From positions 2,852,001-2,916,000 of the forward strand of contig CP136061.1 in NCBI GenBank assembly GCA_032622095.1: a stretch of 64,000 nt of DNA. Reading direction: 5' to 3'. The notes beneath the pieces were generated by a model. The model ran no database searches. It was not told where the DNA came from and saw only the letters and a program-made list of their open reading frames with translations. Below, piece after piece: positions 3,913-47,696 of this stretch; position 1 is the first letter of the stretch; each line of letters starts with the position of its first letter. The DNA is from Siphonodentalium dalli (lineage: Eukaryota > Mollusca > Scaphopoda > Gadilida > Siphonodentaliidae). The translations under genes and the position numbers were made by a program.

Positions 3913-4050
3913 GGCTGGCGTACAATGCTGTCTGCAGTACTAATCCAAATGTGGAAAACCAATGTGCTGCGTTGCTGTCGTGTCAAGGAGGCGTCTGTAA
4001 ATGTGCTGATAGTGCTAACCAGTATTGGGATGGAGACAGCTGTGAAACAA
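3913..4050 (+). CDS. Exon: EGF-like module
   Basis: Six cysteines in the order C-x9-C-x5-C-x5-C-x-C-x12-C, with the motif CQGGVCKCAD and a WDGDSC end. This is the pattern of the short EGF-like modules found in invertebrate MEGF10-like receptors. Acceptor AG at 3911-3912; donor GTTAGT at 4051. The exon is 138 nt with phase 1 at both ends, the classic symmetric unit for shuffled extracellular modules, so further EGF exons may precede it outside the window. Confidence 0.85.
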
Positions 4051-22300: not shown

Positions 22301-25300
22301 GACGATAAGGCGATTTCAGGCCAGCCGTGTGACATGCCCATACATATTATACAATACATCAATATAGTGAATATACATTAAGTGAATGTGATATGAAAAC
22401 AATTATCAACACCATTACACGTTGAACTGTACGTGGGAACATGGATTGTTAAAATACCTTATTCCATGCAATTCGCTGGGAGGATAAGCCTTCTCTTCAG
22501 AATGAAAGACAAAATTGTATTATGCGCATTGTGAAGTGTGTTGTAATAAGCATCGTTTGCTGGGGATCAATGTAACCAGACATGTGTGATATGTATCGTA
22601 AATACATCCACCCATTGTACATGCTGTTTTGAAATATGTTATAAATGTTATGTGTTGTGGTTATCCGTACTGCTAACACATTTACATCATCAATGTACAA
22701 TATCATGTTCTTATTTTGTGTTTAATTTAAGGCGAAATGGGCAAAAGAATCCCCGTGCTACTCACACGACAACCACTGATCAAGGTGTGTTACATATCCT
22801 CAATCTTAATAATATTCCTATATAACTCTGCAATTCTTTCCGAAGAAAATCTACTTGGCGTCACTGATTGGAAATTAAATACATATACACCATTTCAAAA
22901 ATTAGCAGATGCCTGTTTCGAAAGTCAGTAGATGATGGCACAGGGGTGTGAGCCCGCCATACTTAGATGATATCACTTGGTTTGTTTGATATTGCGTCCG
23001 ATATCAGCCCGTGGTAACCTCATACCAACCCGTGACCGAAGTTGATCAATTTGCCAACAGCTTCGTGTTTTGTTATATTTTTAATTATTAAATATATATA
23101 TATATATACTCTGCAAGGTAAATAATTGGGCAATACTACTGCCCATTAGATGACCATTGTATGTTACTTTACACTCGGAAAATGTGTTAAGATCACAGTT
23201 TTGCTGAGAGATATGTATGTGGAAATATGGATTAAAATGCCTTATTAATTAACTTAGAAAACAAACTTTTTCATTCTGAACACAATATACATTGTTTATG
23301 ATGCGCATCTCGGGATACCTCACATGTGCCCTATATGTATGTTTATGTTCCCAGAGAATCAGTCGCTTAGGACATGTGCACATTTACACATTCTTCATTC
23401 CAGCTCGAATAACGTTCTTGTCTCGTTCCAGAGATCCAACTGTCAGTTCTGGACTGGCGAATAACAATCGAACAACTGGGAGGTTATATCAAACATCTCT
23501 CATTGGGTACAAATTATTTTCAACAATTCAAGGTAATTGTTATATTATTCAAGGATTGCAATAGGTTCCTCCGTAAAAATAACAATTGTGGTAGATTGGC
23601 AATAGCATTAAAGTAAACGCACAGTATGTATGATTATTGTGCCATTACACCAGTCCCTACTCACAGATGGCATCATATATGGTGTTATAGCTGACAAAAT
23701 GACAAAGCATACGGAATAATTATGTCATGCAATTATCGAACATTAAGAAAATTAAAAGTCAATATCGACTTCTAGATTTATACAGCTTGACATTAAGATA
23801 CTTTTTATCATTGTAAGAATATACATTGTTTTACCTGGGAGACCACTGAGCTTGTATTCACCAAATGGGTTTGTTAATCTTCCAGGTAGTTTATAACGGG
23901 TTTGTCCAATCAAGGGGTTGTATCAATCAGTTGGTGAATACGAGCCCCGGTATTCCTAGCTTATAGCGCTATTTGTTTTATTATCTGAATAAATTACACA
24001 CATGAGTTGCCAGCCTCTTTCAAAAGCCGACGAAATCATTTGCGCTATATTCATTAATTCAAGATTCAATATACTTTATTTGATTTTAGTTCAACATAAT
24101 AATATTCGCAAATATAGTTTTACCAGATTGTGCGTTTGAAAGCTGTTTTGTTTGCGTGGTAAACGTAACGTTTGTATAACATAATGCATATGTTTGAGCT
24201 TCTGCTTTGTTTGCGTTATGTTATACCTAAAGTTTGGATAACATAATGCATATTTTTTCAGTTGCTGCTTGTTTTGCGTGGCAAACCTAATGTTTGGCAG
24301 TATAATGATCTTTAAAACGCCATTTAAAAATATATCGTTTGCACAATTTAGTCAGTGTAGTAAATGTGTCGCACCACAACAGCTTAATGTGAATGCTATT
24401 AAATGTTAAATGAATGTCACGTGTTTTTGTTTTATTTAATTGTGTATAGAAATACAACTGTTCATATTTTTATTTATATTATATTTGTGATTGATCATTT
24501 TCACATAAAAGTCGATGAATTTCCTCGGGATTGAACTCTTTCTCCATCGGTCATAGTAAAAACTGCACCATTACAATGGTACTATTGACATCAGTTAAAA
24601 CAGTACTATTGCAATGGTACAATTGCCATCAATATAGTAACATGTCCTTTCCACAACTGTTCGTTAATGTAGTATCCGGAATCGCGGATCCGATGTGGGT
24701 TCAGTTATACGTTGCTGCTCTTTATTGTGACTTTATATCGCATCAAAACACAAGTCACGCACGTGTCATTCATGAGTGTACGTTGTCTTGAAACGAAATA
24801 TGGAAGAGAGCTGTATGAGTAATTACATTAGCAGATAAAACGTGCACAACTATTGTTAATTATATAATATCTACTATCACTATCAGGATAATATTGTAAT
24901 GCTATGTATCACTTCTGATCTATCAGACAATATAGACAAAGATTTGACATATATAATAACATATGTTTCTTAGAAACTGACACAAGGAGCAGTGAAACCC
25001 TGCATAGCAGCCAAAAATAATGTCAAATCAAGGAATCTAAAAGGGACAAGGAGGATATGTACATGTGAGTGAACCAGTTAATATTTAGTTGTTATCTTGA
25101 TACATCCAGATTGAATTGACATTGACACGTTTGATTGTTGCTAGTATTAATAACTGATGTCCACTGGATTCCACCCAATTAAACTTTAAAACATGAGACC
25201 TGCAGTCCTTCAAAATATCACATCCCGTACATTAATTTATGTTACAAATAATTAATGTGCACATTGTCTGCAGAGAATAAATGATTCAATTGGACAAAAA

Positions 25301-28300
25301 TACATTGTAATGTGATGTCATAAAATACATACACACCTATACGTGTTCCCTGGGCTAGTATTGTTTAATGAATCACCACAATGTCAATTATATGACTTTC
25401 CTACGATTGATGTGTGTATGATGTGTGCATGTTTGCGAACCGATATATTGTAATGATGTCTCATTTATTATTATTTGATACCATTTATTTACTTATAATC
25501 GTATTGTAATGAATTCATATATGTTGATACCAGAGCCAATAACAAGCAACTTCCTCTGGACTCAACAAATAAATTATTCAAGAGAAACGAGAATTACCTT
25601 CATCTGAAATATCATTGCCCACATCGTCTGCTGAAATCATTCAATCTGTGCGTGACTGCTTGGAATCTAAGAATATGTTGGGTAGAACATCAGCGTGCTG
25701 CATAGGTTAATTGGTTTATGGATCATATGTAATGATTTTGATGAAATTTTAAAGAGAATAATATTCAGTGAGTTCATTTTGCTTTCTTTAATCATTGCTA
25801 ACATAAATGCAAACCCTTTTCTTCAGATGACCACACACGAGTCATCCTCACAGACGATGAAGAGCCTCGATTCGTGAATGCGTCATACATTAACGTAAGT
25901 CTTCTGTTCACGTTCAACATATTTAAAAAAAAAAAATTTTGGTTCACGCCACGACATACACCCACTGTCATATCTGAACTCTGTAAATGTGGTTGTGGAC
26001 TAAAGGCCACCAGTCCATGACATGTATATACAGTACACGTAACGTAAATTATACTGCGGTATGGTGCAACTGATTGTCAGACCATGCCATGTATATACAG
26101 TACACGCAACGTAAATTATACTGCGGTATGGTGCAACTGATTGTCGGTCCATGAAATGTATATACAGTACACTTAACGTAGATTATACCGACGTACGGTG
26201 CAAGCGATTGTCAGTCCATGTCATGTATATACAGTACAGGCAACGCAAATTATACCGCGGTATGGTGCAACTAATTCTCTGTACATGACATGTATATACA
26301 GTACACCTAACATAAATTATACCGCGGTACGGTGCAACTGCTGGTCAGTCCATGACATGTATATACAGTACATGTAACGTAAATTATACCGCGGTATGAT
26401 GAACCTGATTGTCAGTCCATGACATGTATATACAGTACACCTAACGTAAATTATACCGCGGTATGGTGCAACTGATTGTCAGTCCATGACATGTATATAC
26501 AGTACACCTAACGTAAATTATATCGCGGTATGGTGCAAATGATTGTCAGTCCATGCCATGTATACACAGTACACGTAACTTAAATTATACCACGGTATGG
26601 TGCAACTGATTGTCAGTCCATGCCATGTATACACAGTACACGCAACGTAAATTATACCGCGGTATGGTGCAACTGATTGCCAGCCCATGCCATGTATATA
26701 CAGTACACGTAACGTAAATTATACCACGGTATGATGAACCTGATTGTCAGTACATGACATGTAAATACAGTACACCTAACGTAAATTATACCGCGGTATG
26801 GTGCAACTGATTGTCAGTCCATGCCATGTATATACAGTACACATAACGTAAATTATACGGCGTTATGGTGCAACTGATTTTCTGTCCATGCCATGTATAT
26901 ACAGTACACGTAACGTGAATTATACCGCGGTATGGTGCAACTGATTGTCCGACCATGTCATGTATATACAGTACATGTAACGTAAATTATACCGCGGTAT
27001 GATGAACCTGATTGTCAGTCCATGACATGTATATACAGTACACCTAACGTAAATTATACTGCGGTATGGTGCAACTGATTGTCAGTCCATGCCATGTATA
27101 TACTGTACATATAACGTAAATTATACTGAGGTATGGTGCGACTGATTGTTAGTCCATGACATGGGTATACAGTACATCTAACTGTAATTTATACCGCGGT
27201 ATGGTGCGACTGATTGTCAGTCCATGACATGTATATAAAGTACACTTAACGTAAATTATACCGCTGAACGGTGCAACTGATTGTCGGTCCATGACATGTA
27301 TATACAGTACACATAACGTATATTATACCGCGGTATGGTACAACTGATATTGGTCCATGCCATATATATATGTGGTTGTGGACTAAAGGCCATCAGTCCA
27401 TGACATGTATATACAGTACACGTACCGTAACTTATACCGCGGTATGGTGCAACTGATTGTCAGTCCATGCCATGTATATACATTACACGTAACGGCAATT
27501 ATACCGCGGTATGGTGCGACTGATTGTCAGTCCATGACATGTATATACTGTACATATAACGTAAATTATACTGAGGTATGGTGCGACTGATTGTTAGTCC
27601 ATGACATGGGTATACAGTACATCTAACTGTAATTTATACCGCGGTATGGTGCGACTGATTGTCAGTCCATGACATGTATATAAAGTACACTTAACGTAAA
27701 TTATACCGCTGAACGGTGCAACTGATTGTCGGCCCATGACATGTATATACAGTACACGTAACGTATATTATGCCGCGGTATGGTACAACTGATATTGGTC
27801 CATGCCATATATATATGTGGTTGTGGACTAAAGGCCATCAGTCCATGACATGTATATACAGTACACGTACCGTAAACTATACCGCGGTATGGTGCAACTT
27901 ATTGTCGGTCCATGCCATGTATATACATTACACGTAACGTCAATTATACCGCGGTATGGTGCGACTGATTGTTAGTCCATGACATGGATATACAGTAGAT
28001 CTAACGGTAATTTATACCGCGGTATGGTGCGACTGATTGTCAGTCCATGATATGTATATGAAGTACACTTAACGTAAATTATACCGCTGTACGGTGCAAC
28101 TGATTGTCGGTCCATGACATGCATATACAGTACACGTAACGTAAATTATACCGTTGTATGATGCAACTGATTTTCAGTCCATGCCATGTATATACAGTAC
28201 ACGTAACGTCAATTATACCGCGGTATAGTGCCACTGATTGTCAGTCCATGCCATGTATATACAGTACACATAACATAAATAATACTGCGTTAAGTTGGAA

Positions 28301-31300: not shown

Positions 31301-34300
31301 AGATATTGTTCGGATCATGTGTAACCAACCTGTGTAATTTCGGTGTTGTTGATCCCTAATTGATAAGTTATCACTCCAATGCAAGTTTGTAATTCGTTTG
31401 TGTTATTACTATATGTATATAGGTGGTGTCGTCAACAAATGAAAGCAATGAGAGGGTGGATGCATCTTTCATATTGTTAACGTACATATGTACGTTAGAA
31501 AAATGAGGTTCTAAAATGAACCCATAAGGCACGCCACAGTTTACATCTAGACCTTCGGACAGTGTATTTTTAAAACATACACGTTATTTTCTATTAACTA
31601 AATAGCAACGAAACCAAACGTCGGTTAGATCTATAATTTGATAGTGAGATAGTTTAGATAAAAGTAACTCACGATGACTAATGTCGAATCGCTAGATAAT
31701 TGGCCATTAGTTTGTGCAACGGAACTTAGGAGTTTAATTATTGGATGAAAGGTTGAGTGTTTGCTACGAAAACCATACTGGTGTTCGTACAATATATCAC
31801 TGTCGTTAAGAAAGTCTCTAAACATTACAACATTTGTGCACATTAAATTTGTCGACCATGAGCTCGCCATGTTTTTAACATAATTTTGAAAAATGGTAAA
31901 CTCCCATACAGAGGTTACCCTGAGTATACATATGACGTTTGGTGACGAACTGATGAGAGATGTGACCTATGTGGTGTGTCAAATTAAATTGTTGACGCAC
32001 GTACGCACGAATGCATGCACGGACGGACTGACTGAGTACTTTGCCATGTTGTGCTGACCATGAAAACCTTACTATTAACTGTCATGCATCATGTGATGAT
32101 TTGTTGTAATAATTAGTTTTATGACATAATGGTTGTCAGACATTGCACGCATATTTCTTCATGTTCTCGACTATTTGTGGAAATCCTCAGATGCGACATA
32201 GAACTACTTCCGTTAACACCATGTAGAGTCTCGCTGAATAAAAAAACACATGAGAAAGACTAATGTTACAAATCATATTAAACTTTATTTCTATACCATC
32301 TGGTACGGGATTCGTTTTCTCGGCCATATTTGAATTGTGGTTGATCGATATGTTATGTAAGCTATTCGAGTCTTAGTTTGGTAAGGAAACCGAACAAAAC
32401 CAACATTGAACAGGGTTATACAATGGGGATGGTATATGTCAAATATGCGGCTCCTATCAGCATATATTAAGCAAATGGAACACAACATGACAGCGATGTG
32501 ATTCGCATTCACTTCGCGGCGCGATCGACGTAAACTACACCACCATTGTTCCCTTGTGAGTGTTGCATGTCGTGTCGCTTCACGCCGGGGGGGGGGGGGG
32601 GGTGGTACACGTATATCACGTCTTTGTGGCATCAAATTGGCGTTGTGAACTCCATGTCATGTTGCATTCGCTAAATATGGACTGATAGGTGTGACATAAT
32701 ATTAGACGATATCAACGACAATACATGCTCTAATCATTACACTGTATTGAACAACGTCCATTTTATCTTTACTTAAAACCTCTCTATTTTGTCATTTCTC
32801 CTGACATTAGATAATAGAGAATTGGTGTTCAATTACCAAATACGTATGTTATAATGTTAAACTGCCACAGGTGGTGTATCACAACAAAAATTACAGTTAA
32901 TTCATTATTTGCTTTCCTTTAGTTAAAAGAACAAAATGAGCGAAATATAATACGATGTGAATTCTAAAGCATTTCTAAAACGAAACTGACTCCATGAGAA
33001 AGACTAAAATGTGAAAGTTATGTTGTGGGACAATCGATATTGGGTATGCGGTTATGTTGTGAGACAATCGATAATGGGCATGCAGTTGGCGCATTATAAA
33101 ATACTTTATCGCGTAATACATCAATCGTAACATCACGATGTTTTAATTATTGAAGATTTGATGAACTCTAGTATTTGTAACTTAGAATAACACAACATAC
33201 GATTTAGATATCGTATTTCGGTATAAACACGAAGCACTCTCGTTCAGCTGGAAATTCATAGTGGCTACATGTGTATATACATGCATGCTTACTTCAAGGA
33301 TATCATGTCGCGTTAGCCTCACAATAAATGAGGAGTTGTCAACCTACTTGTGTACATGCATATGGATATAAAATTACTAATTAAATACCTCCACACCTGT
33401 CTCTTAATTGGGTTACAATATGTCGTACTGAGTAAATATTGTTTATCACATACACATTATGTGTAATTATTCTTTCAGGGTTATGACGCTGAAAAGAGTC
33501 ATATCGCAATGGCAGGTGAGTCGCATTTAGAAACTTTAATACGATTTTTGCGATCGTATTTCATATTGCGTATTTCACCTTTTTCATTTCGCATATTTGA
33601 AATTATGGGATCAACATATAGTGAATCAGGTGCATGGTGTTATTTAGGGGACACGCTTGTTGCCTGGTGTGATTTATGGGATAAACAAGCTGCATGTTGT
33701 GATTTACGGGATACACTTGTTGCTTGATATTATTTAGGGGATAACATGCTGCCTGGTGTGATTTAATGGACACACTTGTTGTTTGATATGATTTAGGGGA
33801 TAACATGCTGCCTGGTTTGAGTTTGTCTTTTTTCGGCGGGTTTTACGAAGGGAAATGCTGTTTAACCCGTTGTATACTAAATGGATTATCCATTTCAGTT
33901 CCAGGATCATAGGACACCAAATTTTCTAGATTACCACGTTAGTGCATGTTTAGAAATATGTATAACTATATTAATGTCAGGAAGTATATGCAATATTCAT
34001 TCTATAGCATATTAAAGATTTGTGATCCGAACAGATATAAAATGGCATATGCCAATTTTCGACTCAGCAGGCTAATACACACCGAACAAATACTTGCAGT
34101 CGCATTATGTTCATGACACACACACCGACTATATACACATCATCACCCATCAGTGTTTTGTTTCGGATCGTATTTGGCAGTACACATTATAAGAGGTGAC
34201 CATTGACTGTTTTTCACCCACTGACCGACGCGCGAAGCGCGTCCAGTGGGTGTACTATAATCGTAGGACTCATGCGTTTCTGCTGAACTGAACTAGTGTC

Positions 34301-37300: not shown

Positions 37301-40300
37301 CAACTTGACATTTAATAGACAATTTCGATTAACTGCAATAACTTAAGGAATCTCTAATTGAGCTCAAGCCCAATAAGAATATTCCTTCAGTTATTGTGCT
37401 TAAGCGCAGTTAGAGATACCTTATTGCGCTTAAGCACAATGTGATATTCCTGTGCAATAAGGAATATTCTTATTGCGCTTAAGTGTAATAAGACATTCCT
37501 TATTACACGTAAGCGAAATTACATCAATATTGCACTTAAGCGCAATTAATATCTCTCTCATTAGATCACCCTCGTGCAAGTAGTAGAATAATCCTATATT
37601 TGTTCCACCCATTGTACCATGGAGATGGACTACATCACCTGAATTATAGGGAGTTTATGTTCTATATATAATATATTCCTTATTAAGAGATTCCTTATTG
37701 GGTTTTATTATATAAGCGCAATTTGTAAATTCTATTATTGCGGTTAAGCACAGTTAAATATATACTTATTGCGCTTAATCACAATAGAGATTCCCTTATT
37801 GTGCTTAATCGCAATTAGCTCTTCTTGCGATTAATTTAAAAAAAGTTCTAATTATATTGTAACTATTGTTTTGTCCTTTAATATTTCCCATACATCATGT
37901 ACACATATATTATGCTAGAATGGTACTATTATTACTAATACCACTCGTAGTAGATAATACCACCTTACTGTCAATATCCTATCATGGTTAGTTTCAAATC
38001 ATAACGTTAATTGTTATTACTATGTGTGTACTGTACATCAGTCATCAATTAATAATATTTTGCTATTTAGCATGCGAAGTGGAAGACCCTCCAATAGCTT
38101 ATCAATACCACTCGGGACAGTGGGTGTTTTTCCTCAATTAATTGAATTTCTTGTTATAGGTTGACAACAAATAAAAAAACTGAGTCACCATTTGACAATC
38201 TATATATGGCCATCATAACCACCTCATATTTATTAGCTGATCGCATCCATTGTATTATACAGAAACATGGTAGTTTTATGGTGTTTAATTGGACAGGACA
38301 ACTGAAATCCGTGTTTAAAACACTCCTGAGTTGGCATTGCATGAATTAATCTAGTTGTATGAATGTCACTACAGATCCATCCGACGAACATTTAGAAGAC
38401 ATCTGGTCCGTGGTGTGGAGTGCAAGCTGTCAATTTATTGTCATGCTTAACGGAACTAGTGATCAACAGGTTTGTCATATGTATATGGAGAGCTATGTGT
38501 CATTTGTTATTTAACTTCTGTCATCTGATATAATGATGATGACACTAGCTCGTCGTTGTTGTAGTATCTTGTCACGTTTCAGGGCACATATTTATTAAGC
38601 CCATTTCATCCTAGTATGAATTTTATACCTTTATGAAAATATCCCATGGACATCTTCACTCGTGTGTTTGCATACACATACCCATTAAAAATATTTCCAG
38701 TTCCCCAGTACGTACTAAAACATCATCTAAATCGTTTAAGTATGCGCGTTGTTTATACAATAACAAAGTTATGTTCTTTGAGAGATTCTTGGGGTGGCGC
38801 TTAAATATCAATGTTTTACATCAGCACCTGCAACCTACGAAAATTCACAACAACCAATGATCTATGATTTTTTAGCCCAATAAGGGCTCTATAGGTATGC
38901 ATTATCCTACCTTAATCTCTCGATGCAGATAGTACTGTTCGCCCATAGTCCCTGTGTTCCTCCACTGGTTTATTGTCATATTTTGCTAATATTGAGATAT
39001 TTCTGCAGCCTGCAGTGTTTGAATATCCCATGATTTGTTATAAAGAGCTGATGTGAATCCATTACATTCTGTATGATTTGAGACTTACATGACATATTAC
39101 ATTCTGTATGATTTGAGACTTACATGACATATTACATTCTGTATGATTTGAGACTTACATGAATCTATTACATTCTGTATGATTTGAGACTTACATGACA
39201 TATTACATTCTGTATGATTTGAGACTTACATGACATATTACATTCTGTATGATTTGAGACTTACATGAATCTATTACATTCTGTATGATTTGAGACTTAC
39301 ATGACATATTACATTCTGTATGATTTGAGACTTATTTATCTAAACGCGTTTTTTCTATAATTCACGGTTGTGCGTATAATAAATAGCATTACTACAGCTA
39401 ATTTCCATTGTAAACTCACTACCTGACACATTGTGTTTAACAAAATGCTGTATTACCATTATACAATGTTTGAATATCCCATGATACAGTGTTTGAATAT
39501 CCCATGATTTGTTCCTAAGTGCCAAAATATGCACCCCACCTGCAGTATTCTTCAAAACAACAGGATTACATTTAATTTATGAATTGTGATGCTTATTTAA
39601 CATATCGAGCCCTGTTTGTCTTCTCCCTGGCTTGATTCGCCTAATCTAGTATATATAGTCATGCACGTGCAGATTGGATATTGAGTTGTCTCCTGCTAAA
39701 ATGGAATAGTAAGATCTGGCCTAACCATAGTGCCCCACTTTTGCATCCTATGCGATATTGTATGTATCCGGTAGATCTAAAGTCAAATCAGCTGCCATTG
39801 AGACGATAGAGAACAGGACATACATGTATGCTTTAACTAAACTCGATAATTTTTGTTTGAGTGCCGTTATCGTTGTGTCCGACCAATTTATACAAGAATG
39901 TCCATGGCCAATGTAATCAATTTAAAATTCATTTATATTCAGGTATTGTGTTCCATTTTGATCAAATCTGGCCCAGGTATACAATATGAACATTTTCATT
40001 TATTAATCTCGAAGTCACTATATGTAATCAAAACGTTTTTGATTACGTTTAGAACAGTATTGTATTTGTAATAACATGTGTCAACTGGAAAATGAATAGT
40101 AGTCCATGCATAGATAAGAGTCCACCAAGCATCCAACATGTGCAAAGGTATCGATATCGATATGGTATTGCTCAGGTTGATTCATTGACATAGGTTTATT
40201 ATTAAGTAGTATTCTCTGGAGACGTTTAGTTAGGTGTTGTCTAGAGTTGTATGTTGTGAAATTGGCCTCAGATTCGGGAGATTTCCAGGTCAGGTTATGT

Positions 40301-43300
40301 GCCTTATATTGTTCCGCATGTTCGCTTATATTGGCTTATACTGTCATCAGACCGTGTGGCATGTTCCTATCAATGAACAGTTGTTGTTGCTGTAGTTGGG
40401 TTTTGCGGTGGGAAATGTTGTCCCTACCAGGATACTGCCATTCAACCCTCTGCAAACATGCTTCAATTCTAGAAATGTGTACATTGTTAATTGTTGTTTG
40501 TTTATGCGCGTCCATGATCATAAGTATATTTGTTTCCTTAGCCCATGAAGCTGCAGTGGTGTCCTTTCTCTGTGATAATAACCCGCTACGTTGTCTTTCT
40601 TTCATCCAGATTTAATTCCCAAATCTCACTAAAATGCTACCTCTAAAAGCTCATTTCAAGCTTACTGTGAAAAGTTCTTGCTCTGGTAATGAATGTGTTT
40701 GAATGCACATTCAATATTATTCACATATGACAAGAAACAATCAATGCTGAAGCCTTGCAACTAGCAAGGCTTATTACTATTCATCTCATTTTTAAATTTC
40801 TATGACCAAAATGTATGGTTACCCATTTATGTTGGTACAGTGTGCGTGTCCGAGATATTGGCCCAGAAAGGAGAAACTACCGACAGCTTACGGGAAATCA
40901 TCAGTGGTTTTAAGATCTGAAGAGATTATATCAACGTTTGTATTGAGAGAACTGACAGTATGGAGGGTGAGTTTTATATTGTACAATCTGGAGGGTGAGT
41001 TAGCTATTATACAGTGTGGAGGGTGAGTTCACTATTATACAGTCTGGAGGGTGAGTTCACTATTGTGCAATCTGGACGATGAGATTAATATTGTACAGTC
41101 TGGAAGGTGAGTTCCCTATTATACAGTCTGGAGGGTGAGTTCACTATTATACAGTCTGGAGGGTGAGTTCACTATTATACAGTCTGAAGGGTGAGTTCAC
41201 TATTGTGCAATCTGGATGATGAGATTAATATCGTACAGTCTGGAGCACAGGTATTAGGCACAAACTTTGTTTTTTTAATTTAATCAAAATCTCGGAAAGG
41301 TATCTATCTCATTTTTGATATAGGTCAGCATTTTTCTCTACAAAAACAACATTTTATTTTGTATTGATCTGTAATTGCAGCACTATGTGACCAAATAATC
41401 ATAGTTTTCAAAATTTATTTGGTTGGTACCCAAAACGTCCGTCCAATGAAAAATAAAAAATAAAAAATCAAACAATCCAACAACAATCCAACAACTAGAT
41501 CACCGAAATCTATACTCTAATCATCAAACTAAATAGCCCTATTGTCAAACAGACGTTGTTTCATGAAGGATAGCTAATTTGGGTGTGTTACTCAACATAC
41601 ATCGAGTTTAATAACGAATTTTGTCTATTTTTCCCGTCAGTTTAACATGATTCTATTATCGGGAGGCCATTTTGAAAGTGCGAAACAAACTCGATAAACG
41701 CTGCCGTACATGACTCCAAAATAAGATAATTTTACATCGATAAAAAATAATGTTTTATCAAATTCCTTATCTAGTGGGTATTACATATCCACCGCATGAT
41801 CTTTGTCATTAAAAATGCCGGATATCAATTAAAAGAGAGACATTAAAATTAATTTAATAAAGTTCAAGTTAGTTTCGCTTTCAGTTTTGCAAAATGGCTT
41901 CCCGGGAATAGAAATATGTTAAACTGACGAAATGAAAGAACATAAATCGTTATTAAACACGATGTATGTTGAGTACCACCCCCAAATTAGCTGTAATTCA
42001 TGAAACAACGTCTGTTTGACAATAGGGCTATTTAGTATATAGTATAGATTTCGGTGATTTAGGGGTTAGATAATTTGATTTTTTGATTTTTCATTGGACG
42101 GACGTTGTGGTTACCAAAATATAAATTTCATTGACAACTTCGAATGATATTCTATGCTCACTTGTTTAAAGTACGATGGAAAGCTAAACTTTAACAACAA
42201 ATATGATTACTTGGGCACATAATGCTAGAATTCCAGATCAATTTGATGAGGATGATGTTTTGACCTCCTATTTTCACTATCAGCCTTGATACTTACCTTT
42301 CCGAGATTTTGATTAAATTAAAAAAAGGAAACAATTTGTGCATAATACCTGTAGTCTGGAGGGTCCGTTTACTATTGTACAAACTGGATGATGAGATTAA
42401 TATTGTACAGTCTGGAGGCTGAGTTCACTACTATACAATATGGTTGATGAGATTAATATTGTACAGTCTGGAGGGTGAGTTCACTATTGTACTAGTCTGG
42501 AGGGTGAGTTCACTATTGTACAGTCTGGAGTGTGAGTTTACTATTGTACAATATGGATGGTAAGTTTACTATTGTACAGTCTGGGGGTGAGTTTACTATT
42601 GCACATTCTGGATGGTGAGTTTACTATTGTGCAATATGGAGGGTGAGTTCACTATTTTACAGTCTGGAGGTGAGTTTACTATTGTACAGTCTGGAGGGTG
42701 AATTTACTATTGTACAGTATGGAAGGTGAGTTTACTATTGTACAAACTGGAGGGTGAGTTTACTGTTGTACAATCTGGAGGGTGAGTTCACTATTGTACA
42801 GTCTGGAGGGTGAGTTCACTATTGTACAGTATGGATGGTGAGTTCACTATTGTACAGTCTGGAGGGTGAGTTCACTATTGTACAGTATGGATGGTGAGTT
42901 CACTATTGTATAGTCTGGAGGGTGAGTTCACTATTGTACAGTCTGGAGGATGAGTTCACTATTATACAGTCTGGATGATGAGATTAATATTGTACAGTCT
43001 GGAGGGTGAGTTCACTATTGTGCAAACTGGATGATGAGATTAATATTGTACAATCTGGAGGGTGAGTTCACTATTGTTCAATCTGGAGGGTGAGTTCGCT
43101 ATTTTTCCATTCTGGATGGTGAGTTTACCATTGTTTACATGTACATACGTTATTGAAATGTAATATTTTCTACTAAGTACCATAATGATGTTAACGCTAC
43201 AATCTTGTACGTATATGTACAAACATGTGCGTACATACACTGAATCAACCTCCGAACTATGCTTTTGAGTTTTATTGTTCAGATATAACAGCATATAAGT

Positions 43301-46300
43301 TGTGATTTAAACACAACATGGTTTTTAGATTAGTTGAAATGTATCGCATTGCACGTAGGACTCAATTGTATGAGGAGCACGCGTGAAAATAGCCTATGTT
43401 AAGTGACTATTACTAGCAGATTTTAACATATTTCGCTATTGCCAACGAAAGTAACCAGAATCACGTCACAATTTCACATACACGTCCATTCTATTTATGA
43501 GTTTTGTGTATAGCATGTATCATGCCAAACTTGTACATGTAGCAAAACAAAGAAATAATCCTATATTAACCGAATGAACGACAAGTGCTATGAAGACAGA
43601 CCTCAAAATAAATTTGCCTATGTGTAAAGGTCTAAATATTATTTAAGCCAATCAATCCACGGACATAATATGTCATTATACGTTGTGCCGTTATATATGC
43701 ACGTACGCTTGTTAGTCTCGCATCATGAAATCGTGTGACTGCTACCAAGTGCACATACATAATTATGTTACACATACGTGGTTCTTAAACTGGTTAGCAA
43801 TAGATGTCATCCGCTATGATATGCTCACATTTCATTAATATCATTCAATTCCACTATGCGTATTCAGAATTATAACGTGGCATTATTTTCTAATTGCGTT
43901 GTTGAGTTGTTCCGTGATTTAACATTATGTTAAATGAATGTTTCTGTGTTTGTGCTGGTTTCTACTAAGCAATGTAGGATATTAATTTGGAGATTTAATA
44001 CGATAAGAACTTGATATCACGAAACTGATGAAATCAAAATCAGCTGATATACTACTGATTCAAACTCTTGTTTTCCCACAATAACTATTGAAAATTGATA
44101 CGCCATTTGGAAACACAAAGTCTAATATAACGTATCAGATATATCTCACCAGGGCGAATGTAGCAGAGAGGTTACCCAACTTCAACTCTTACCAGACTAT
44201 AATTTCACAGACATGGTTAATCTGGATGAATCACTACTGATCTTACACGAAGCGAGAAGTTATCAGCAACATGGTGGTAGAGTCCTGGTTCACTGCAGGT
44301 TAGTTTCACAAAGATCAGTTATGTATACTGCTTATACGATAACAAAGCTTCGACTAAACTTAATCTAAACCCATCCATTCTAACGTTGTTATACATTAAC
44401 ATATCTATCCATAACAGCTGAATGATGTATATTGGGTCTGGCCTTTTGAACTGAAACTTAGCTTTATACTCCCTCGAACCAAGGCCGTTATTTGTGTTGG
44501 ACCCCGCGTTGGGCCGACATTGTACATTGCCGGTGACCCTCCGCCCAAGTAAAGTTTACAGCTTCATATCTGGAATAGATATGCTAACAATCAACATAAA
44601 TTCACAAAAGTAATGCGAGATGAAATTAGCGTATATTATTGTTCGCTGCCGATTTAAAGTTCGCGAATATACTCTTGACAAGGTTTTTTTTATCTAGAGA
44701 GCAGTCACTGGATAGGCCATAGCTTCTTAAGTCATTGAGATGGTTATTTTGGGGATTGTTTATACAATATGAGTCTTTAACTTATGTCGAATCACTGTTA
44801 TCAAAAATTGGACAGTGTTGCGGTGAATAGCAGATATAGTGTTGCGGTACGTCGAATTTCACCTTCAGTTTGGAGGGCTATGATTTACTCAAAACGTGTA
44901 TCTGGTTAATTTGTATTATATAAACAATATTGTAATATACGATTGTGAATCACCCGATCGTTCGTTGTTGAACTAATATTGGTATCCATATAATATACTT
45001 ATTTCAATGGGGATCGCCGCGTTGAATCTAAGCACCTCGAATGTATAGTTCCCCCTCATAAACTAACCAGTAACTCTCATGCTATTCCAACAATATTGAT
45101 AAAATGTTGAACAAATTGAGAACTTGGTAGGTGCAGTACATTGCGGGTGTTAATTATCGCGATGGTTTTCTGAAATTCGATTATATGTGATGGTGTTTGA
45201 TTGGAAATGTTTTTTGCGTTTTGTATGCGGTGTGATGAATGATATGTACTATCCAACATGGGATAACGGTAACACAGTGCGTGAGAATGCCGACCAAACA
45301 GCTGATACATCAAAGTTCATCGATGTTGGGCCAATTCGTATGTCGCCCATAATATACTACTATCTGCATGTGCTACATAAAAAAAATTATGCCGGGTCAC
45401 GGATTGGATGAACTATCTGCTCAACAATCATTATGTGCAGGCAATTGCAAGTTGATAAACAACCTATCATCACTACATGAAAAAGGTTGATGAATGTATA
45501 TTCACAGTAGTTGACAATGTGTATGTAATTAACATACGAGGGAAGTAATAAACAGATAAATCCATTCACAGTAGTTGAGTATTTGTATGTAATTAGCACA
45601 GACAGTAAGTAATAAACATATATGTCTACTGAAACACTTGTTCCAATTCCCACATATCTGGGTTGCTCAGGTCAGTCAGTAATTGAACATTATGAGTAGC
45701 ATATGTATTTGCTTGTACAATTGATGTAAATCCCCTTACTATGGACAAATTTTGGTGGTATTTTTCTCTCAATGCTTTGCTAAACAAACTTTGTTCAAAC
45801 CTTATTTTCGATTGTATTATGTATGAATCATCATCTTGTTATTATTATATTTTATTACACTCCTATGCGCGATTTCCATTGAAAACACTGTTAATTAAAA
45901 AGTGGTAATGTCACTAGTGGATTATGTCATTTCCCGTGACGCCAATGACGTTACGTCGCTCACTGATCTAGAATGAATTTTCGATGGTTGATCTTTCTAC
46001 ACATCCGGGATTTCATGCATTACTTATGTGTGTTTTAATAATCATATTTGCCGAAACAAATTGATGCAGAAGTGTAATAAATAGAGTAATCAATTAGTTC
46101 CGAGAATTACATTCAATAATTCACTTGAGGCGAGAGACGTTTGGATAAGAAACGCTAACGCGCACTCGTTTATTACCGACGTCTCTCGCCTCTCATGAAT
46201 TATTTAACGTGATTATTAGAACCAATTGATTACTCTCTATATATCCCTTAACTTTTTTTCTAATTAACGTATACGCCAACTTACGTCATGCATGCATTAA

Positions 46301-47696
46301 CGAACTGGATTTTCCCGTCCCAACTATATATAGCCAATTATTAGAGAAATGTTTTTTGATATGACGAAATAAAACCACGTTTCTATTGGTGAACATAAGC
46401 CAACTGAAAACTTGTTTCCGTTATAGCAACTGGATGTTAAATTAAAGACAATATTATTTTAGGGTGGTACCATAATGCCTTTGATGGGTGTCATAGATGT
46501 GACTGGTATGTTTCATGTGTGACTTATTCCCTGGTTTACACTGCTGGCATTGGTGTGACTAGTGTGTATACTCAACATTCAGTGACGGTATTGGTGAGAC
46601 TAGTATATATCCGTGAATTTCAGTGCGACTAGTACATATTATTTTACTTTCAGTGACGGTATTGGTGCCACAGGTGTTTTCCTAGCGGCTGATTATCTTA
46701 TAGACCAGAGCAGAATGGAAAGCAGCATTGATGTCTTTACTTGTGTTCAGAACCTCAGGGAGCAGAGAGCGGATATGATTCCTAAGCTTGTAAGTACCAT
46801 GGTGTGTTAACTAAAGTCCAATTTGCTTATTAGTCCTGGGCTTGTAGTACCCCTCGTGCACAACCACTACTTAACTTCTTTCGGTATGTTCATATACCCT
46901 AATGTGTACTGGTCAGGAAAAATGATGTTAACAGCAAATATGTTGTGTACCTACTTGGTCAATGTTTAGCCTTACTCAGTAACCATTTATGATGGGTGGG
47001 GAAAACAGTAAAGACAAGACAGTGGCAAACTGTTTTGTGTTCAATCGAAACACTATATGTACTTTGTTCAAAGAAATTACCCATTTACGACGATAAAGTT
47101 TTGACACAATCATATTACATCGATGTATCAAAGACAACAACCGATCGCTGCCTGTTCACTTCACCATCCGAGGAATAGAGAAATATAGTTCCCATATAAT
47201 TCCATTTATTTCGCAAATAGCTGACGAATTTCATCATAAAACATAACTGATATATTCCCTTCTGTGAGATAAAAACAAATGTTCAACAACGATTGTTATG
47301 AGAACTTGAGAGTTTAAATTATAGTCAATAATGATTCCTTTGTTCTAGGAGCAGTATAAATTTCTATATGAAGCAGTGAACAGAATATTCATAGACAACA
47401 CTTATGATAGTCTGCTATACCAGACACCGGCAAATTACGATCGACTGGAGAGGAACCAATCATATGCTAGGAATGTGGCCAACGATAGAGACAGCACTTA
47501 TGATACTGTGCCAAGCGAAAAACCGTCGAATTACGACCAATTAGAGAGGAACCAGCTATCTTACGACCAATTAGAGAGTAACCAGCCATCTTACGACCAA
47601 TTAAAGAGGAACCAGCCTTCTGCTGCGAATGTGGGCGGATATCGAGAATTGGACTACTTAGTTCCTATTGCACATTCGACAAATTCTGGGAAATGA
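3913..47696 (+). CDS. Receptor-type tyrosine pseudophosphatase with ITAM-like tail (partial 5', 12 exons)
   Basis: Gene model joining 3913-4050, 5341-5470, 22732-22784, 23432-23532, 24974-25064, 25827-25894, 33479-33515, 38375-38469, 40841-40966, 44153-44298, 46654-46789 and 47349-47696. The joined frame is open for about 488 codons: an EGF-like module, a 26-residue membrane helix, a basic stop-transfer, a juxtamembrane stretch, one PTP fold and a Tyr-rich tail. All junctions are GT-AG and all phases agree. Family knowledge: active PTPs need KNRY, WPD, HCx5R and a Q-loop Gln. Here these are KSRN, LPD, HCSDGIGAT and Pro, so the domain resembles the inactive second (D2) domains of receptor PTPs such as CD45. 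Only one PTP domain follows the membrane, so the usual active D1 is absent. The ectodomain start and promoter lie outside the window. Exon boundaries are inferred from the sequence and could shift by a few bases. Confidence 0.9.
4051..5340. other. Intron between EGF-like and membrane exons
   Basis: Starts with donor GTTAGT and ends with acceptor TTTCAG. It holds the second copy of the duplicated segment (4140-4215). No further exon is recognised. Confidence 0.7.
5341..5470 (+). CDS. Exon: transmembrane helix and stop-transfer
   Basis: Joined in phase 1 to the EGF-like exon, it encodes a short polar stretch (TDTGTHTGIDM), a strongly hydrophobic helix rich in Ile and Val (about 26 residues, ending VVTVILI), then RRRRNKH. 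This is a textbook single-pass type I membrane segment with a cytoplasmic basic anchor. Acceptor TTTCAG at 5335-5340; donor GTAAGT at 5471. The exon ends in phase 2. Confidence 0.92.
6144..6372 (+). repeat. 26-bp tandem array, left arm
   Basis: Unit AATTACATGCATTAACAATAG plus CGGCA, about eight copies, with occasional GAATTAA or AAAAG variants and a 6-bp AAGGCA insertion in the last units. Mirror copy at 21074-21302. Confidence 0.9.
6884..7080 (+). repeat. TTCAAAAA microsatellite-like array, left arm
   Basis: Imperfect 8-10-bp repeat of TTCAAAAA with AC or TT between units; it gives a spurious Lys/Phe/Gln protein. Present three times in the window: here, inverted at 20366-20562, and again at 21746-21942. 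Confidence 0.9.
8056..8105. repeat. TA microsatellite, left arm (50 bp)
   Basis: Twenty-five uninterrupted TA units. The mirror tract at 19345-19390 is 46 bp, which explains exactly the 4-bp shift between the two arms. Confidence 0.95.
9540..10830. repeat. Diverged ~400/800-bp tandem repeat, left arm
   Basis: Recurring blocks include CATTGGTCTGGAA, GTGTATACACAT, GCATTATTAGTAG, TCTCCATTAAATGGAGA and ATCATGTATCGCA followed by CTAAACAAGCGAGA. The last block recurs about 805 bp apart, with partial sub-units about 400 bp apart. It looks like an old satellite or fragments of a repeated element. Mirror at 16620-17910. Confidence 0.7.
12130..13300. repeat. Diverged ~265-bp tandem repeat, left arm
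   Basis: The phrase TGGAACTCATGAAATRTGATAA recurs near 12234, 12505, 12766, 13031 and 13241, with linked phrases ATAATTTGGTCAGGA and GTAATTACACCCC in each unit, giving a period of about 265 bp and four to five units. Mirror at 14150-15320. Confidence 0.8.
13501..13563 (-). other. Lone half C2H2-zinc-finger-like stretch, left arm
   Basis: On the minus strand the frame reads CHLCRKILSTNYNLQKHKKSK, which fits C-x2-C-x12-H with NL before the His, but the second zinc His is missing. The surrounding ORF shows no other domain. It could be a zinc-finger exon fragment (a GTAAAG donor-like site overlaps its end) or chance. The mirror copy is on the plus strand at 13887-13949. Confidence 0.3.
13713..13737. 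other. Central spacer of the palindrome, GC-rich
   Basis: Between the strictly paired arms lie about 25 bases, almost all G or C with a CCCCTCATCCCC core. With one mismatch, pairing extends to 13717/13733, leaving about 15 bases unpaired. The flanks form GGCGCGCC. This composition is very unlike the AT-rich arms. Confidence 0.85.
13887..13949 (+). other. Lone half C2H2-zinc-finger-like stretch, right arm
   Basis: Mirror of the minus-strand stretch at 13501-13563, with identical sequence. Each copy starts about 150-160 bp from the palindrome centre and points away from it. Confidence 0.3.
14150..15320. repeat. Diverged ~265-bp tandem repeat, right arm
   Basis: Inverted copy of 12130-13300; the same unit phrases appear in reverse complement. 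Confidence 0.8.
16620..17910. repeat. Diverged ~400/800-bp tandem repeat, right arm
   Basis: Inverted copy of 9540-10830. Confidence 0.7.
19345..19390. repeat. TA microsatellite, right arm (46 bp)
   Basis: Mirror of 8056-8105, two TA units shorter. Confidence 0.95.
20366..20562 (-). repeat. TTCAAAAA array, right arm
   Basis: Reverse complement of 6884-7080. Confidence 0.9.
21074..21302 (-). repeat. 26-bp tandem array, right arm
   Basis: Reverse complement of 6144-6372. Confidence 0.9.
21564..22154 (-). repeat. Extra direct copy of 20184-20774
   Basis: This 591-bp block repeats 20184-20774 at an offset of exactly 1380 bp, with no difference seen in the parts compared. It is therefore also an inverted copy of 6672-7262. 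It abuts the outer end of the right arm. The junction shares TA with the start of the source block (AATAAATA|GACCACT versus GTGTA|GACCACT). It ends at ATCA, followed by unique sequence. Confidence 0.93.
22155..22731. other. Intron sequence between palindrome and exon
   Basis: Unique AT-rich sequence up to the acceptor TTTAAG at 22726-22731. No other feature recognised. Confidence 0.6.
22732..22784 (+). CDS. Exon: short juxtamembrane segment
   Basis: A 53-nt exon. Its first base completes the Glu codon left open by the membrane exon, and it encodes RNGQKNPRATHTTTTDQ, a basic and Thr-rich linker. Acceptor AAG at 22729-22731, donor GTGTGT at 22785, exit phase 1, matching the next exon. It is supported mainly by phase and by continuing the RRRRNKHE basic stretch, so it is less certain than the other exons. 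Confidence 0.7.
23432..23532 (+). CDS. Exon: PTP domain N-terminal helices
   Basis: Reads IEQLGGYIKHLSLGTNYFQQFK at its end, the pattern of the first PTP helices (I-x2-L-x2-YI ... F-x2-[EQ]F). Acceptor TTCCAG at 23426-23431, donor GTAATT at 23533, phase 1 in and 0 out. Confidence 0.85.
23851..23946. repeat. Short inverted repeat in intron
   Basis: GCTTGTATTCACCAA and TTGGTGAATACGAGC form a 15-bp stem with one mismatch, separated by about 66 bp. This may be a decayed hairpin element. Confidence 0.4.
24148..24300 (+). repeat. Tandem repeat of ~66-71 bp, about 2.5 copies
   Basis: The phrases TTTGCGTGGTAAACGTAACG and TTTGGATAACATAATGCATA recur with small changes three times. Intronic. Confidence 0.75.
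24974..25064 (+). CDS. Exon: PTP pTyr-loop region (KSRN)
   Basis: Encodes KLTQGAVKPCIAAKNNVKS followed by RNLKGTRRICT. It aligns with the N-x2-KNRY segment of PTPs. The Tyr that stacks on the substrate phosphotyrosine (Tyr46 of PTP1B) is Asn here, one of four catalytic lesions. Acceptor TCTTAG at 24968-24973, donor GTGAGT at 25065. Confidence 0.9.
25827..25894 (+). CDS. Exon: PTP core (YDHTRV ... NASYIN)
   Basis: Encodes YDHTRVILTDDEEPRFVNAS plus YIN, the most conserved PTP fingerprint. Its first codon is split with the previous exon (T+AT). Acceptor CTTCAG, donor GTAAGT at 25895, exit phase 0. Confidence 0.97.
26011..29735 (+). repeat. 67-bp minisatellite, about 55 copies
   Basis: The unit includes GTATATACAGTACACGTAAC, then GTAAATTATACCGCGGTATG, then GTGCAACTGATTGTCAGTCC and ATGAC. 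Period is 67 bp by direct counting (CAGTACAC at 26031 and 26098). Each unit holds the palindromes TACCGCGGTA and GTATATAC. Higher-order structure is visible: blocks opening with GTGGTTGTGGACTAAAGGCC at about 25988, 27370 and 27815, and a three-unit block repeated at about 29204 and 29405. It fills the start of the intron after the NASYIN exon. Confidence 0.95.
29736..30760. other. Intron sequence, nothing recognised
   Basis: AT-rich sequence with no exon, repeat or element I can support. Confidence 0.5.
30763..31900 (-). pseudogene. Non-LTR retrotransposon (LINE) reverse-transcriptase remnant
   Basis: On the minus strand, moving downward, the reading shows FRDFLNDSDILYEHQYGFRS and KHST near 31765-31830, a KLSHYQIIDL ... 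W-x-RCYLVNRK stretch, CGVPYGFIL near 31512-31540 (in place of the PQGS-x-LGP block), the catalytic SFVDDTTYIY near 31428-31445, and an RMWNSLEDKL end near 30800. The order and motifs fit the RT of CR1/Jockey-like LINEs. Frame changes and a stop after NRK show it is dead. The endonuclease and the RT fingers are missing, so it is a truncated fragment, oriented against the host gene. It lies in the receptor intron. Confidence 0.88.
31901..33478. other. Intron sequence with poly-G tract
   Basis: Contains a 16-G run at 32587-32602, which creates a spurious proline-rich minus-strand ORF. Nothing else recognised up to the acceptor TTTCAG at 33473-33478. Confidence 0.5.
33479..33515 (+). CDS. Exon: PTP micro-exon (GYDAEKSHIAMA)
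   Basis: A 37-nt exon encoding GYDAEKSHIAMA plus one base, matching the GY-x5-[FY]IA-x-QGP segment of PTPs that follows NASYI. Acceptor TTTCAG, donor GTGAG at 33516; the split Asp codon (G+AT) leads into the next exon. In place of the usual QGP it reads AD. Confidence 0.9.
33632..33825 (+). repeat. ~30-bp minisatellite, about six copies
   Basis: Variants of CCTGGTGTGATTTAGGGGAT with ACACTTGTTG or AACATGCTG alternate in units of 29-31 bp, starting about 115 bp downstream of the micro-exon donor. Confidence 0.8.
34215..34252. other. Strong GC-rich hairpin
   Basis: CACCCACTG, ACC bulge, GACGCGC, GAA loop, GCGCGTC, CAGTGGGTG: a 16-bp perfect stem interrupted only by a 3-base bulge. It stands out in AT-rich intron. 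A related GCGCGCTTCGCGC core occurs near 37170. Function unknown; it could be the end or core of an uncharacterised element. Confidence 0.75.
35085..35620 (+). repeat. ~182-bp tandem repeat, three copies
   Basis: Three units start near 35100, 35282 and 35463, each holding CCATCTAAAAAATAATTACG, CCTGTCATTTTAGGAATATA and TTTTATCGACATAAATCGAT with few differences. Confidence 0.9.
35690..36500 (+). repeat. ~300-bp diverged repeat with poly-C tracts
   Basis: Phrases like ACAGTACAGTCGCG, CAACATTGGTCGTTATCGCT and CTACTAATTTAT recur near 35704, 36098 and 36397. C tracts of 12 and 15 precede the second and third copies (36064-36075, 36363-36377). Confidence 0.75.
36725..36995 (+). repeat. ~50-bp tandem repeat interrupted by a MITE
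   Basis: Three units of the form GGATGTGAGGTTTAATGATA then ACTCTATCCACATAA. The first unit is split by the inverted-repeat element at 36774-36892. Confidence 0.8.
36774..36892. mobile_element. Palindromic MITE, CAGTAATG ends, TA target duplication
   Basis: 119-bp element whose halves pair almost completely, starting CAGTAATGTCCAAAGTAATT and ending in the complement, with TA on each side. The neighbouring repeat units give the empty site: CACATA-ATCAAT against CACATA-[element]-TAACCAAT. TA duplication and short inverted ends fit a Tc1/mariner-type non-autonomous element. A relative lies at 59717-59822. Confidence 0.9.
37330..37830. repeat. Cluster of TTGCGCTTAAGCGCAAT-like palindromes
   Basis: More than ten near-copies of ATTGCGCTTAAGCACAAT and AAGGAATATTCTTATT occur in both orientations, at irregular spacing. 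The core CTTAAG is self-complementary. It looks like a degenerate satellite of short palindromes. Confidence 0.65.
38375..38469 (+). CDS. Exon: PTP segment with DIWSVVW
   Basis: Encodes DPSDEHLEDIWSVVWSASCQ then FIVMLNGTSDQQ. It fits the T-x2-DFW-x-MVWE ... IVML block of PTPs. Acceptor ACAG at 38371-38374, donor GTTTGT at 38470, phase 1 in and 0 out. Confidence 0.95.
39057..39335 (+). repeat. 35/36-bp tandem array with A-A-B higher order
   Basis: The unit is CATTCTGTATGATTTGAGAC then TTACATGACATATTA. Seven and a half copies; the third and sixth carry GAATCTATTA instead of GACATATTA, so the array is a repeated trimer of about 106 bp. Confidence 0.93.
39340..40840. other. Intron, nothing recognised
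   Basis: A 122-residue ORF at 40247-40615 is open but shows no domain and no splice-phase fit, so I do not call it. The interval ends at the acceptor TACAG at 40836-40840. Confidence 0.5.
40841..40966 (+). CDS. Exon: PTP segment with CACPRYWP
   Basis: Encodes CACPRYWPRKEKLPTAYGKS through ISTFVLRELTVWR. It fits the KC-x2-YWP ... YG-x-[IV]-x-V ... [YF]-x2-R block of PTPs. 126 nt, phase 0 at both ends. The donor GTGAGT at 40967 lies inside the first unit of a 28-bp minisatellite, so the last four codons (TVWR) are part of the repeat. Confidence 0.95.
40955..41243 (+). repeat. 28-bp minisatellite carrying the exon/intron donor, first block
   Basis: The unit ACAGTCTGGAGGGTGAGTTC plus ACTATTGT is repeated about ten times, beginning inside the exon (ACAGTATGGAGG is coding). 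Each unit therefore duplicates the last 12 exon bases and the donor GTGAGTT. 28 is not a multiple of three. Some units have the variant GATGAGATTAATATT, which lacks the donor. Confidence 0.95.
41246..42352. mobile_element. 1.1-kb foldback element inside the minisatellite
   Basis: Ends ACAGGTATTAGGCACAAA and its complement TTTGTGCATAATACCTGT; the ends pair over about 57 bp through ATTTAATCAAAATCTCGGAA. Pairing resumes through most of each half (for example GTCAAACAGACGTTGTTTCA near 41545 against its complement near 42005), so the whole element is a long hairpin. AGTCTGGAG flanks it at 41237-41245 and 42353-42361, either a 9-bp target duplication or simply two minisatellite units. No transposase is seen. 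Confidence 0.88.
42353..43135 (+). repeat. 28-bp minisatellite carrying a splice donor, second block
   Basis: About 28 further units of the same repeat, most with GGTGAGTT, continue after the foldback element. Confidence 0.93.
43136..44152. other. Intron, nothing recognised
   Basis: AT-rich sequence ending at acceptor CACCAG at 44147-44152. Confidence 0.5.
44153..44298 (+). CDS. Exon: PTP WPD-loop region (LPD) and start of P-loop
   Basis: Encodes GECSREVTQLQLLPDYNFTD and ends GGRVLVHC plus AG. It covers the WPD loop, where Trp is Leu but the Pro-Asp remains, and the VHC start of the catalytic loop. Acceptor CCAG, donor GTTAGT at 44299, exit phase 2 completing Ser (AG+T). Confidence 0.95.
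44299..46082. other. Intron, nothing recognised
   Basis: AT-rich intron with short ORFs on both strands that show no domain. Confidence 0.5.
46083..46236. mobile_element. 154-bp palindromic MITE
   Basis: Starts AGAGTAATCAATTAGTTC and ends with its near complement GAACCAATTGATTACTCT. The inner stem GAGGCGAGAGACGT pairs with ACGTCTCTCGCCTC. The central loop of about 40 bp has GCTAACGCGC. It lies in the intron before the catalytic-loop exon. Confidence 0.88.
46654..46789 (+). CDS. Exon: PTP catalytic loop remnant (SDGIGATG)
   Basis: With the previous exon it reads VHCSDGIGATGVFLAADYLI. The signature HC-x5-R-[ST] is HC-SDGIG-A-T: nucleophile Cys kept, phosphate-binding Arg replaced by Ala. Later it reads DVFTCVQNLREQRADMIPKL, typical of the last PTP helices. 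The Q-loop Gln position is Pro. Acceptor TTCAG, donor GTAAGT at 46790, phase 2 in and 0 out. Confidence 0.97.
47349..47696 (+). CDS. Exon: end of PTP domain and Tyr-rich ITAM-like tail
   Basis: 115 codons and TGA. It starts EQYKFLYEAV, the end of the PTP fold, then leaves the domain. The tail has YDSL (exon residue 19), YDRL (30), YDTV (51), YDQL (62, 72, 82), YREL (98) and YLVP (103). YDSL-x7-YDRL and the two overlapping YDQL-x6-YDQL pairs fit the ITAM spacing YxxL-x(6-8)-YxxL. Residues 61-90 come from a 30-bp coding repeat (about three units of SYDQLERNQP), so the number of motifs could vary between alleles. Acceptor CTAG at 47345-47348. Confidence 0.95.
   Translation, partial: EQYKFLYEAVNRIFIDNTYDSLLYQTPANYDRLERNQSYARNVANDRDSTYDTVPSEKPSNYDQLERNQLSYDQLESNQPSYDQLKRNQPSAANVGGYRELDYLVPIAHSTNSGK

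Follow-up and report, generated by a model that had tools for sequence, protein, structure and literature searches.

A Candidate Receptor Pseudophosphatase with an ITAM-like Tyrosine-Rich Tail, and Its Paralogues, in the Scaphopod Siphonodentalium dalli

Introduction

Can a receptor whose ancestral task was to remove phosphate from tyrosines become one that signals through tyrosine kinases? The question is raised by a gene on contig C1 (CP136061.1) of the scaphopod Siphonodentalium dalli (assembly GCA_032622095.1, 2.2 Gb in 9 contigs), which lies in a stretch of 64,000 nucleotides, C1:2852001-2916000, referred to here as the window. An initial annotation, made from the letters of this stretch, had proposed that the gene combines an EGF-like ectodomain and an inactive protein tyrosine phosphatase (PTP) fold with a tail of YxxL motifs resembling immunoreceptor tyrosine-based activation motifs (ITAMs).

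The reading favoured here, which is held tentatively and a little short of an even chance, is that of a former receptor tyrosine phosphatase (RPTP) that has lost catalysis and been turned into an ITAM-like phosphotyrosine receptor. The structural half of this reading, namely a predicted single-pass receptor of RPTP descent with lost catalysis, is the half that rests on sequence, whereas the coupling of the tail to Syk, in the way that MEGF10 couples to Syk and Draper to Shark, is proposed and may or may not hold, with the doubt slightly outweighing the promise.

A Single Open Frame from Ectodomain to Tail

Exons were sought through homology searches with the genome's own PTP sequences, splice-signal scans, a hydropathy scan and comparison with paralogues, and twelve of them join into one open frame of approximately 489 residues in which all the splice phases agree (Table 1; loci are given below as L numbers and contigs as C numbers). 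The predicted protein runs from a six-cysteine EGF-like module through a transmembrane (TM) segment of some 26 hydrophobic residues, followed by RRRR, to a juxtamembrane stretch, a single PTP domain and the tail, and the parts that the initial annotation had brought together are thus united in one gene model. At C1:2.17-2.20, 3.29-3.32, 4.28-4.31 and 4.86-4.89 Mb, and partly also at C1:26.13-26.17 and 39.05-39.08 Mb, relatives of the early exons precede a catalytic exon and a tail, collinear with them and on the same strand; given that the paralogous loci repeat the exon order in this way, the twelve-exon model has independent support. The joining of the tail to the PTP exons, which had been presumed, is borne out as far as an open frame and a continuous domain can do so, as the end of the PTP domain, REQRADMIPKL/EQYKFLYEAV (the slash marks the splice), spans the tail splice and aligns there with RPTP-alpha.

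The EGF-like ectodomain held up only in part. One six-cysteine module has EGF-type spacing, but it has no significant match to a Pfam EGF family (the best is EGF_integrin, E 0.81). A scan of the 10 kb upstream for cysteine patterns returned one unconvincing stretch, and the comparison with paralogues matched no further module there. Of the EMI and multiple EGF/NIM repeats that characterize the Draper/MEGF10/CED-1 family, the window thus offers one six-cysteine module and the 10 kb upstream none that convinces, and the 5' end of the gene was not found.

Loss of the Catalytic Arginine

The PTP domain matches Pfam PF00102 with an E of 6.7e-49, and its relatives in the PDB are also PTPs. In its catalytic loop, HCSDGIGATG, the phosphate-binding arginine is replaced by alanine, which confirms what had been claimed of this domain, and the WPD region reads LLPDYNF, so that neither the HC-x5-R signature nor the WPD motif of an active receptor tyrosine phosphatase is found. 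What is found is the combination that characterizes a PTP-fold pseudophosphatase, i.e., PTP homology together with a lost catalytic residue, and the domain is probably dead.

The same arginine-to-alanine loop is present in 13 of the 13 other tail-bearing loci with a readable catalytic exon (that of L025 lies beyond the stretch examined), and in the exon L045 on C6, which is near an unread tail match. Elsewhere, the arginine is kept in all 19 of the exons sampled (17 in one reading and 2 in another), with L040 reading GRAG. This sample goes back to 20 catalytic exons taken by choice, rather than at random, from the Pfam PTP matches, from which L045 was removed as a member of the tail family; several of the 19 are near-copies (e.g., L032-L034 and L051), and none lies within approximately 270 kb of a tail match. 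In a tree built on a short alignment of 46 residues, with 15 dead and 16 other rows (L033, L036, L039, L040, L041, L043, L049 and L051 were left out), the dead exons separate with a local support of 0.999, and the active exon nearest to them is at C3:131 Mb (L060). A single loss of the arginine is the simplest reading of this pattern.

The usual inactive second domain (D2) of a tandem RPTP was considered as an identity for this domain and rejected, given that the frame passes from the TM segment through a single PTP domain to the stop, that the catalytic exon is nearest in the tree to active exons with loops of the first-domain (D1) type, and that the D2-like loop of an active relative is different (RDGATRSG). 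The two PTP domains of a tandem MEGF-RPTP of the SudRes1 type are likewise not found between the TM segment and the stop. PF00102 has one match in the window among the matches listed, which alone is insufficient to exclude a weak D1 exon. Where the tail stands here, four active relatives (L056, L057, L058 and L059) have linker-like sequence, as judged by eye; for L060, the active relative that is nearest, no following exon was found within 3.1 kb.

The Tyrosine-Rich Tail

The translation of the last exon comprises 115 residues and a stop; the last PTP helix takes up the first 14 of these, EQYKFLYEAVNRIF, and the tail proper begins at about position 47394. Every motif that had been named in the tail is present in this translation, i.e., YDSL-x7-YDRL, YDTV, YDQL-x6-YDQL-x6-YDQL and YREL. 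In the ITAM adaptors TCR zeta, DAP12 and Fc receptor gamma, the two tyrosines of a YxxL pair are 10-12 residues apart, and the window tail is like them in its pair spacing, although these adaptors have no PTP fold and are not fused to an EGF-like ectodomain of their own.

Three strict pairs of the form YxxL/I-x6-8-YxxL/I are found in the window tail, and none of 50,000 composition shuffles reached this number, a figure that is inflated because of the 30-bp tandem repeat and its three copies; once two of the three repeat units are removed, one pair is left, which is matched by 598 of 50,000 shuffles (1.2%). The motif pattern was rejected as evidence in its own right, given that it is matched by 31 of the 2946 open stretches of at least 15 residues in the window, the tail included, and that 12 of these 31 are (YI)n runs. 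As the bare motif is so common in the AT-rich DNA of the window, it is weak evidence by itself, and it is through conservation across paralogues that the tail appears to be more than chance.

The search for the tail returned 20 matches at E up to 1, which represent 19 places including the window, as L002 and L008 are one exon and were counted once. Of the 18 other places, 14 were read (C1:29602804 and three on C6 were left out), and all 14 tails run open to the stop. Every one of the 15 tails has a tyrosine in alignment columns 19 and 30, with no indel between the two, and P27 and N44 are the only other invariant columns among columns 16-53. A third tyrosine, in column 53, is shared by 13 of the 15, and the length of the tail after the PTP helix ranges from 43 to 110 residues. 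The tail thus keeps a tyrosine pair at the exact ITAM distance while its remainder drifts and gains repeats.

An endocytic or sorting tail, in which YDQL and YDRL would act as YxxPhi signals for AP-2 and the repeats would set the rate of internalisation with no coupling to a kinase, has to be weighed against this pattern, and is improbable. AP-2 prefers Y-x-[QR]-Phi, with which YD[QR]L agrees, and two close copies differ in their number of repeats; yet a YxxPhi signal needs no paired spacing, whereas all 15 tails have the distance of 11 residues, and the first site in L025 and L026 is YDMP, which is not a YxxPhi signal.

The paralogues also bear on a LAT-like phosphotyrosine scaffold, in which single sites would dock Grb2, PLC-gamma and other proteins with no need of a tandem-SH2 reader. 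YxN is a Grb2 site, and YTNV or YSNV is present in L013-L015, L017, L019, L021 and L022, with YTND in L024; SH2 exons that we take, by eye, to be PLC-gamma-like, CSK-like and GRB2-like were also read in the genome. The window tail, on the other hand, has no YxN site, and a scaffold of single sites sits poorly with the conserved spacing of the pair, which makes this alternative an unlikely one.

Selection on the tail was gauged by the Ka/Ks of the window against its paralogues, omitting pairs with a Ks of 1.2 or more, which gave values of 0.32-0.60 for L012-L016 and L021, and of 0.79 for L011, the latter resting on four changes. The locus L011 is a copy with 97-98% identity in the tail, approximately 1.4 Mb away and in the opposite orientation, which is either a recent duplication or an assembly duplicate. 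This copy is what would speak for a decaying pseudogene or an assembly duplicate with no function, but all 12 exons of the model are open and in phase, the other tails that were read are open as well, and the Ka/Ks of the tail is below 1, which leaves this explanation very improbable. The ladder of at least three YDQL motifs, which had been highlighted in the window, does exist there but is restricted, among the tails read, to the window and this closest copy; L012 has YDQF and YNQL at the position of the ladder.

Candidate SH2 Readers

A search with the SH2 domains of human SYK found five segments at C3:225.798-225.808 Mb that are collinear with both of these domains, one of them at an E of 0.062 only. 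The best PDB matches of the joined peptide, among the chains listed, are SYK (E 1.4e-41) and then ZAP-70, and some 25-28 kb past the last SH2 exon, on the same strand, lie two kinase exons that share 56-57% identity with SYK. The search with the SYK kinase also brought up, at C2:149.83-150.59 Mb, dozens of near-identical, uninterrupted kinase-like frames, mostly of 281 residues.

A gene of the SHP type is found at C1:245.70 Mb, where one frame of 636 residues encodes both a PTP domain and a pair of SH2 domains. This gene (C1:245696764-245698302) is uninterrupted, whereas introns split most of the PTP matches in the genome. Given the Syk-like and SHP-type genes, readers appear to be encoded both for ITAM-like sites and for sites resembling immunoreceptor tyrosine-based inhibitory motifs (ITIMs), although the presence of reader genes shows opportunity, not use.

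The SHP-type gene opens a further alternative, that of an inhibitory or damping receptor, in which the phosphorylated tail would dock a tandem-SH2 phosphatase through ITIM-like sites and so borrow a cytosolic phosphatase in place of the activity that it has lost. STYDTV, SNYDQL and LSYDQL in the window tail fit [ILVS]xYxx[LIV], and Draper-II is described, in the portion of the source consulted, as taking up Corkscrew through an ITIM (PMC8092387). Seven of the 15 tails (L017, L019, L020, L021, L022, L025 and L026) nevertheless have no ITIM-type match, and the conserved feature is the fixed 11-residue pair, so that such a receptor is rather unlikely.

A Possible Conversion from Phosphatase to Kinase-Coupled Receptor

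In the ITAM-like reading, the gene descends from an active receptor tyrosine phosphatase. The sequence shows that its PTP domain has lost the catalytic arginine and WPD motif, and this domain, no longer removing phosphate, would have become a structural module. Clustering by ligand may then lead Src-type kinases to phosphorylate the tail, whose paired phosphotyrosines would recruit the Syk-like tandem-SH2 kinase of this genome, as occurs in Draper and MEGF10, and the additional YDQL repeats would create overlapping pairs and a higher avidity. An extension of this scenario, which is offered as a conjecture with rather more doubt than confidence, is that of one conversion event, in which an RPTP, having parted with its arginine and with its partner domain, acquired a tail read by tandem SH2 domains, giving rise to a kinase-coupled immunoreceptor that spread to approximately 19 places (15 read), with a coding minisatellite that tunes the number of ITAM steps.

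A number of points weigh against this reading. Three positions after the first tyrosine (+3), eight tails have leucine, five have phenylalanine and two have proline, so that the ITAM spacing that had been proposed stands for the tyrosines, 11 residues apart throughout, and not for the leucine; a strict ITAM is found in only eight of the 15 tails, namely the close clade of the window (seven) and L024. This tail also fits the ITIM and YxxPhi patterns and, in paralogues, that of YxN, and conservation was gauged among the paralogues of one genome only. Loss of the arginine extends beyond the tail family, as the second PTP domain of L028, a tandem gene whose D2 is outside the sample, reads RDGATQSG. 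It is from order and strand that we infer that the SH2 and kinase exons on C3 form one Syk gene. Finally, a signal-peptide exon or start codon was not found in the 10 kb upstream and 4 kb of the window, which yielded three unconvincing candidates.

If Syk is indeed recruited, a phosphotyrosine eraser would have been rebuilt as a kinase-signalling receptor, the opposite of its ancestral job. The way in which ITAM signalling is built in invertebrates, without antibodies, could then be tested, as could the idea that a change in the number of repeats in one exon sets the strength of a signal.

Comparison with Known Receptors

Draper, MEGF10 and CED-1 are similar to the predicted protein as single-pass receptors with an EGF-type ectodomain, and the ITAM in the tails of Draper and MEGF10 is recognized by a tandem-SH2 kinase of the Syk family, which is Syk in MEGF10 and Shark in Draper, as described in the portion of the source consulted (PMC8092387). 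The protein of the window differs from the NPxY-plus-ITAM tail without other domains in that a PTP domain is present and NPxY is absent from the translated tail; only one six-cysteine module was found, and the binding of Syk is putative. Draper, MEGF10 and CED-1 are not known to have a PTP domain.

The multicopy family resembles, on the other hand, receptors that are genetically tied to parasite resistance in snails. The SudRes1 region of Biomphalaria sudanica, a cluster associated with schistosome resistance, contains RPTPs with MEGF or galactose-binding domains, which share with the present family the EGF-type ectodomain, TM segment, intracellular PTP and organization in multicopy clusters, although they are described, in the sections consulted, with tandem PTP domains rather than one dead domain and a tyrosine tail (PMC12297450). 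The terms "ITAM" and "pseudo" have no occurrence in the main text of that paper. The receptor PTP known as PTPRU is a pseudophosphatase whose PTP domains are inactive (PMC10815196, PMC7320164, in the parts consulted), but it keeps its tandem domains and a MAM/Ig/FN3 ectodomain (PMC10815196), and the consulted parts of these sources mention no ITAM ladder. An ITAM-bearing receptor pseudophosphatase was not found in the open-licence literature, as judged by titles and the beginnings of abstracts.

Exons and Other Features of the Window

The features of the model are collected in Table 1. The first juxtamembrane exon has weaker matches near C1:3.295 and 4.886 Mb. The micro-exon was picked by eye for its register from 67 scored candidates and is the least certain exon of the model; a Pfam search of two of the three plus-strand frames between 20 and 35 kb gave nothing useful.

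Table 1. Exons of the predicted receptor and features of its tail, in window positions (the slash marks a splice).
Feature	Position	Strand	Basis or remark
Ectodomain exon, one six-cysteine EGF-like module, C-x9-C-x5-C-x4-C-x-C-x12-C	3913..4050	+	Several tail-bearing paralogues have exons related to it upstream
Transmembrane exon, MITIIIIISVIAVVVLLLIVVTVILIRRRR	5341..5470	+	Hydropathy scan; frame joins both sides; paralogous exons
Juxtamembrane exon	22732..22784	+	Phase fits; the close copy C1:4308948 alone gives a clear match
Juxtamembrane exon, ITIEQLGGYIKHLSLGTNYFQQFK	23432..23532	+	Splice-signal scan, frame join, paralogue comparison
Exon leading into PTP domain, KNNVKSRNLKGTRRICT	24974..25064	+	Splice-signal scan, frame join, paralogue comparison
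PTP exon, YDHTRVILTDDEEPRFVNASYIN	25827..25894	+	PTP homology, frame join, paralogue comparison
PTP micro-exon, GYDAEKSHIAMA	33479..33515	+	Assignment based on phase, splice signals and register in the PTP domain
PTP exon, DPSDEHLEDIWSVVW...	38375..38469	+	PTP homology, paralogues, frame join
PTP exon, CACPRYWPRKEKLPTAYG...	40841..40966	+	Paralogues, frame join
PTP exon, ends at VLVHC; its WPD loop is degenerate (LLPDYNF)	44153..44298	+	Paralogues, frame join
PTP catalytic-loop exon, HC/SDGIGATG (catalytic Arg to Ala)	46654..46789	+	Pfam Y_phosphatase match; paralogues
Last exon: final PTP helix, tyrosine-rich tail, stop	47349..47696	+	Translation; paralogues
Tyrosine codon starts in the tail	47403, 47418, 47436, 47463, 47499, 47532, 47562, 47592, 47640, 47655	+	
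First pair YDSL-x7-YDRL, Tyr-Tyr distance 11	47403..47447	+	Distance kept in 15/15 tails read
30-bp coding tandem repeat, three copies, one YDQL each	47531..47621	+	Four copies in the paralogue L011

Repetitive sequences were also observed in the introns. The intron after the exon 40841-40966 holds, at 40955-43134, a 28-bp minisatellite of 10.4 copies followed by another 27.9, with 82-83% matches. The 5' splice donor of that exon itself recurs in the unit, GGAGGGTGAGTT, which provides many possible decoy donors; a sequence similar to this minisatellite is found in the paralogue L016. At 39054-39334, the intron contains 7.8 tandem copies of a 35-bp unit. Finally, fragments resembling a reverse transcriptase (YGFRSKHST) are found on the minus strand of a long intron, at 31371-31966, in two open stretches judged by eye.

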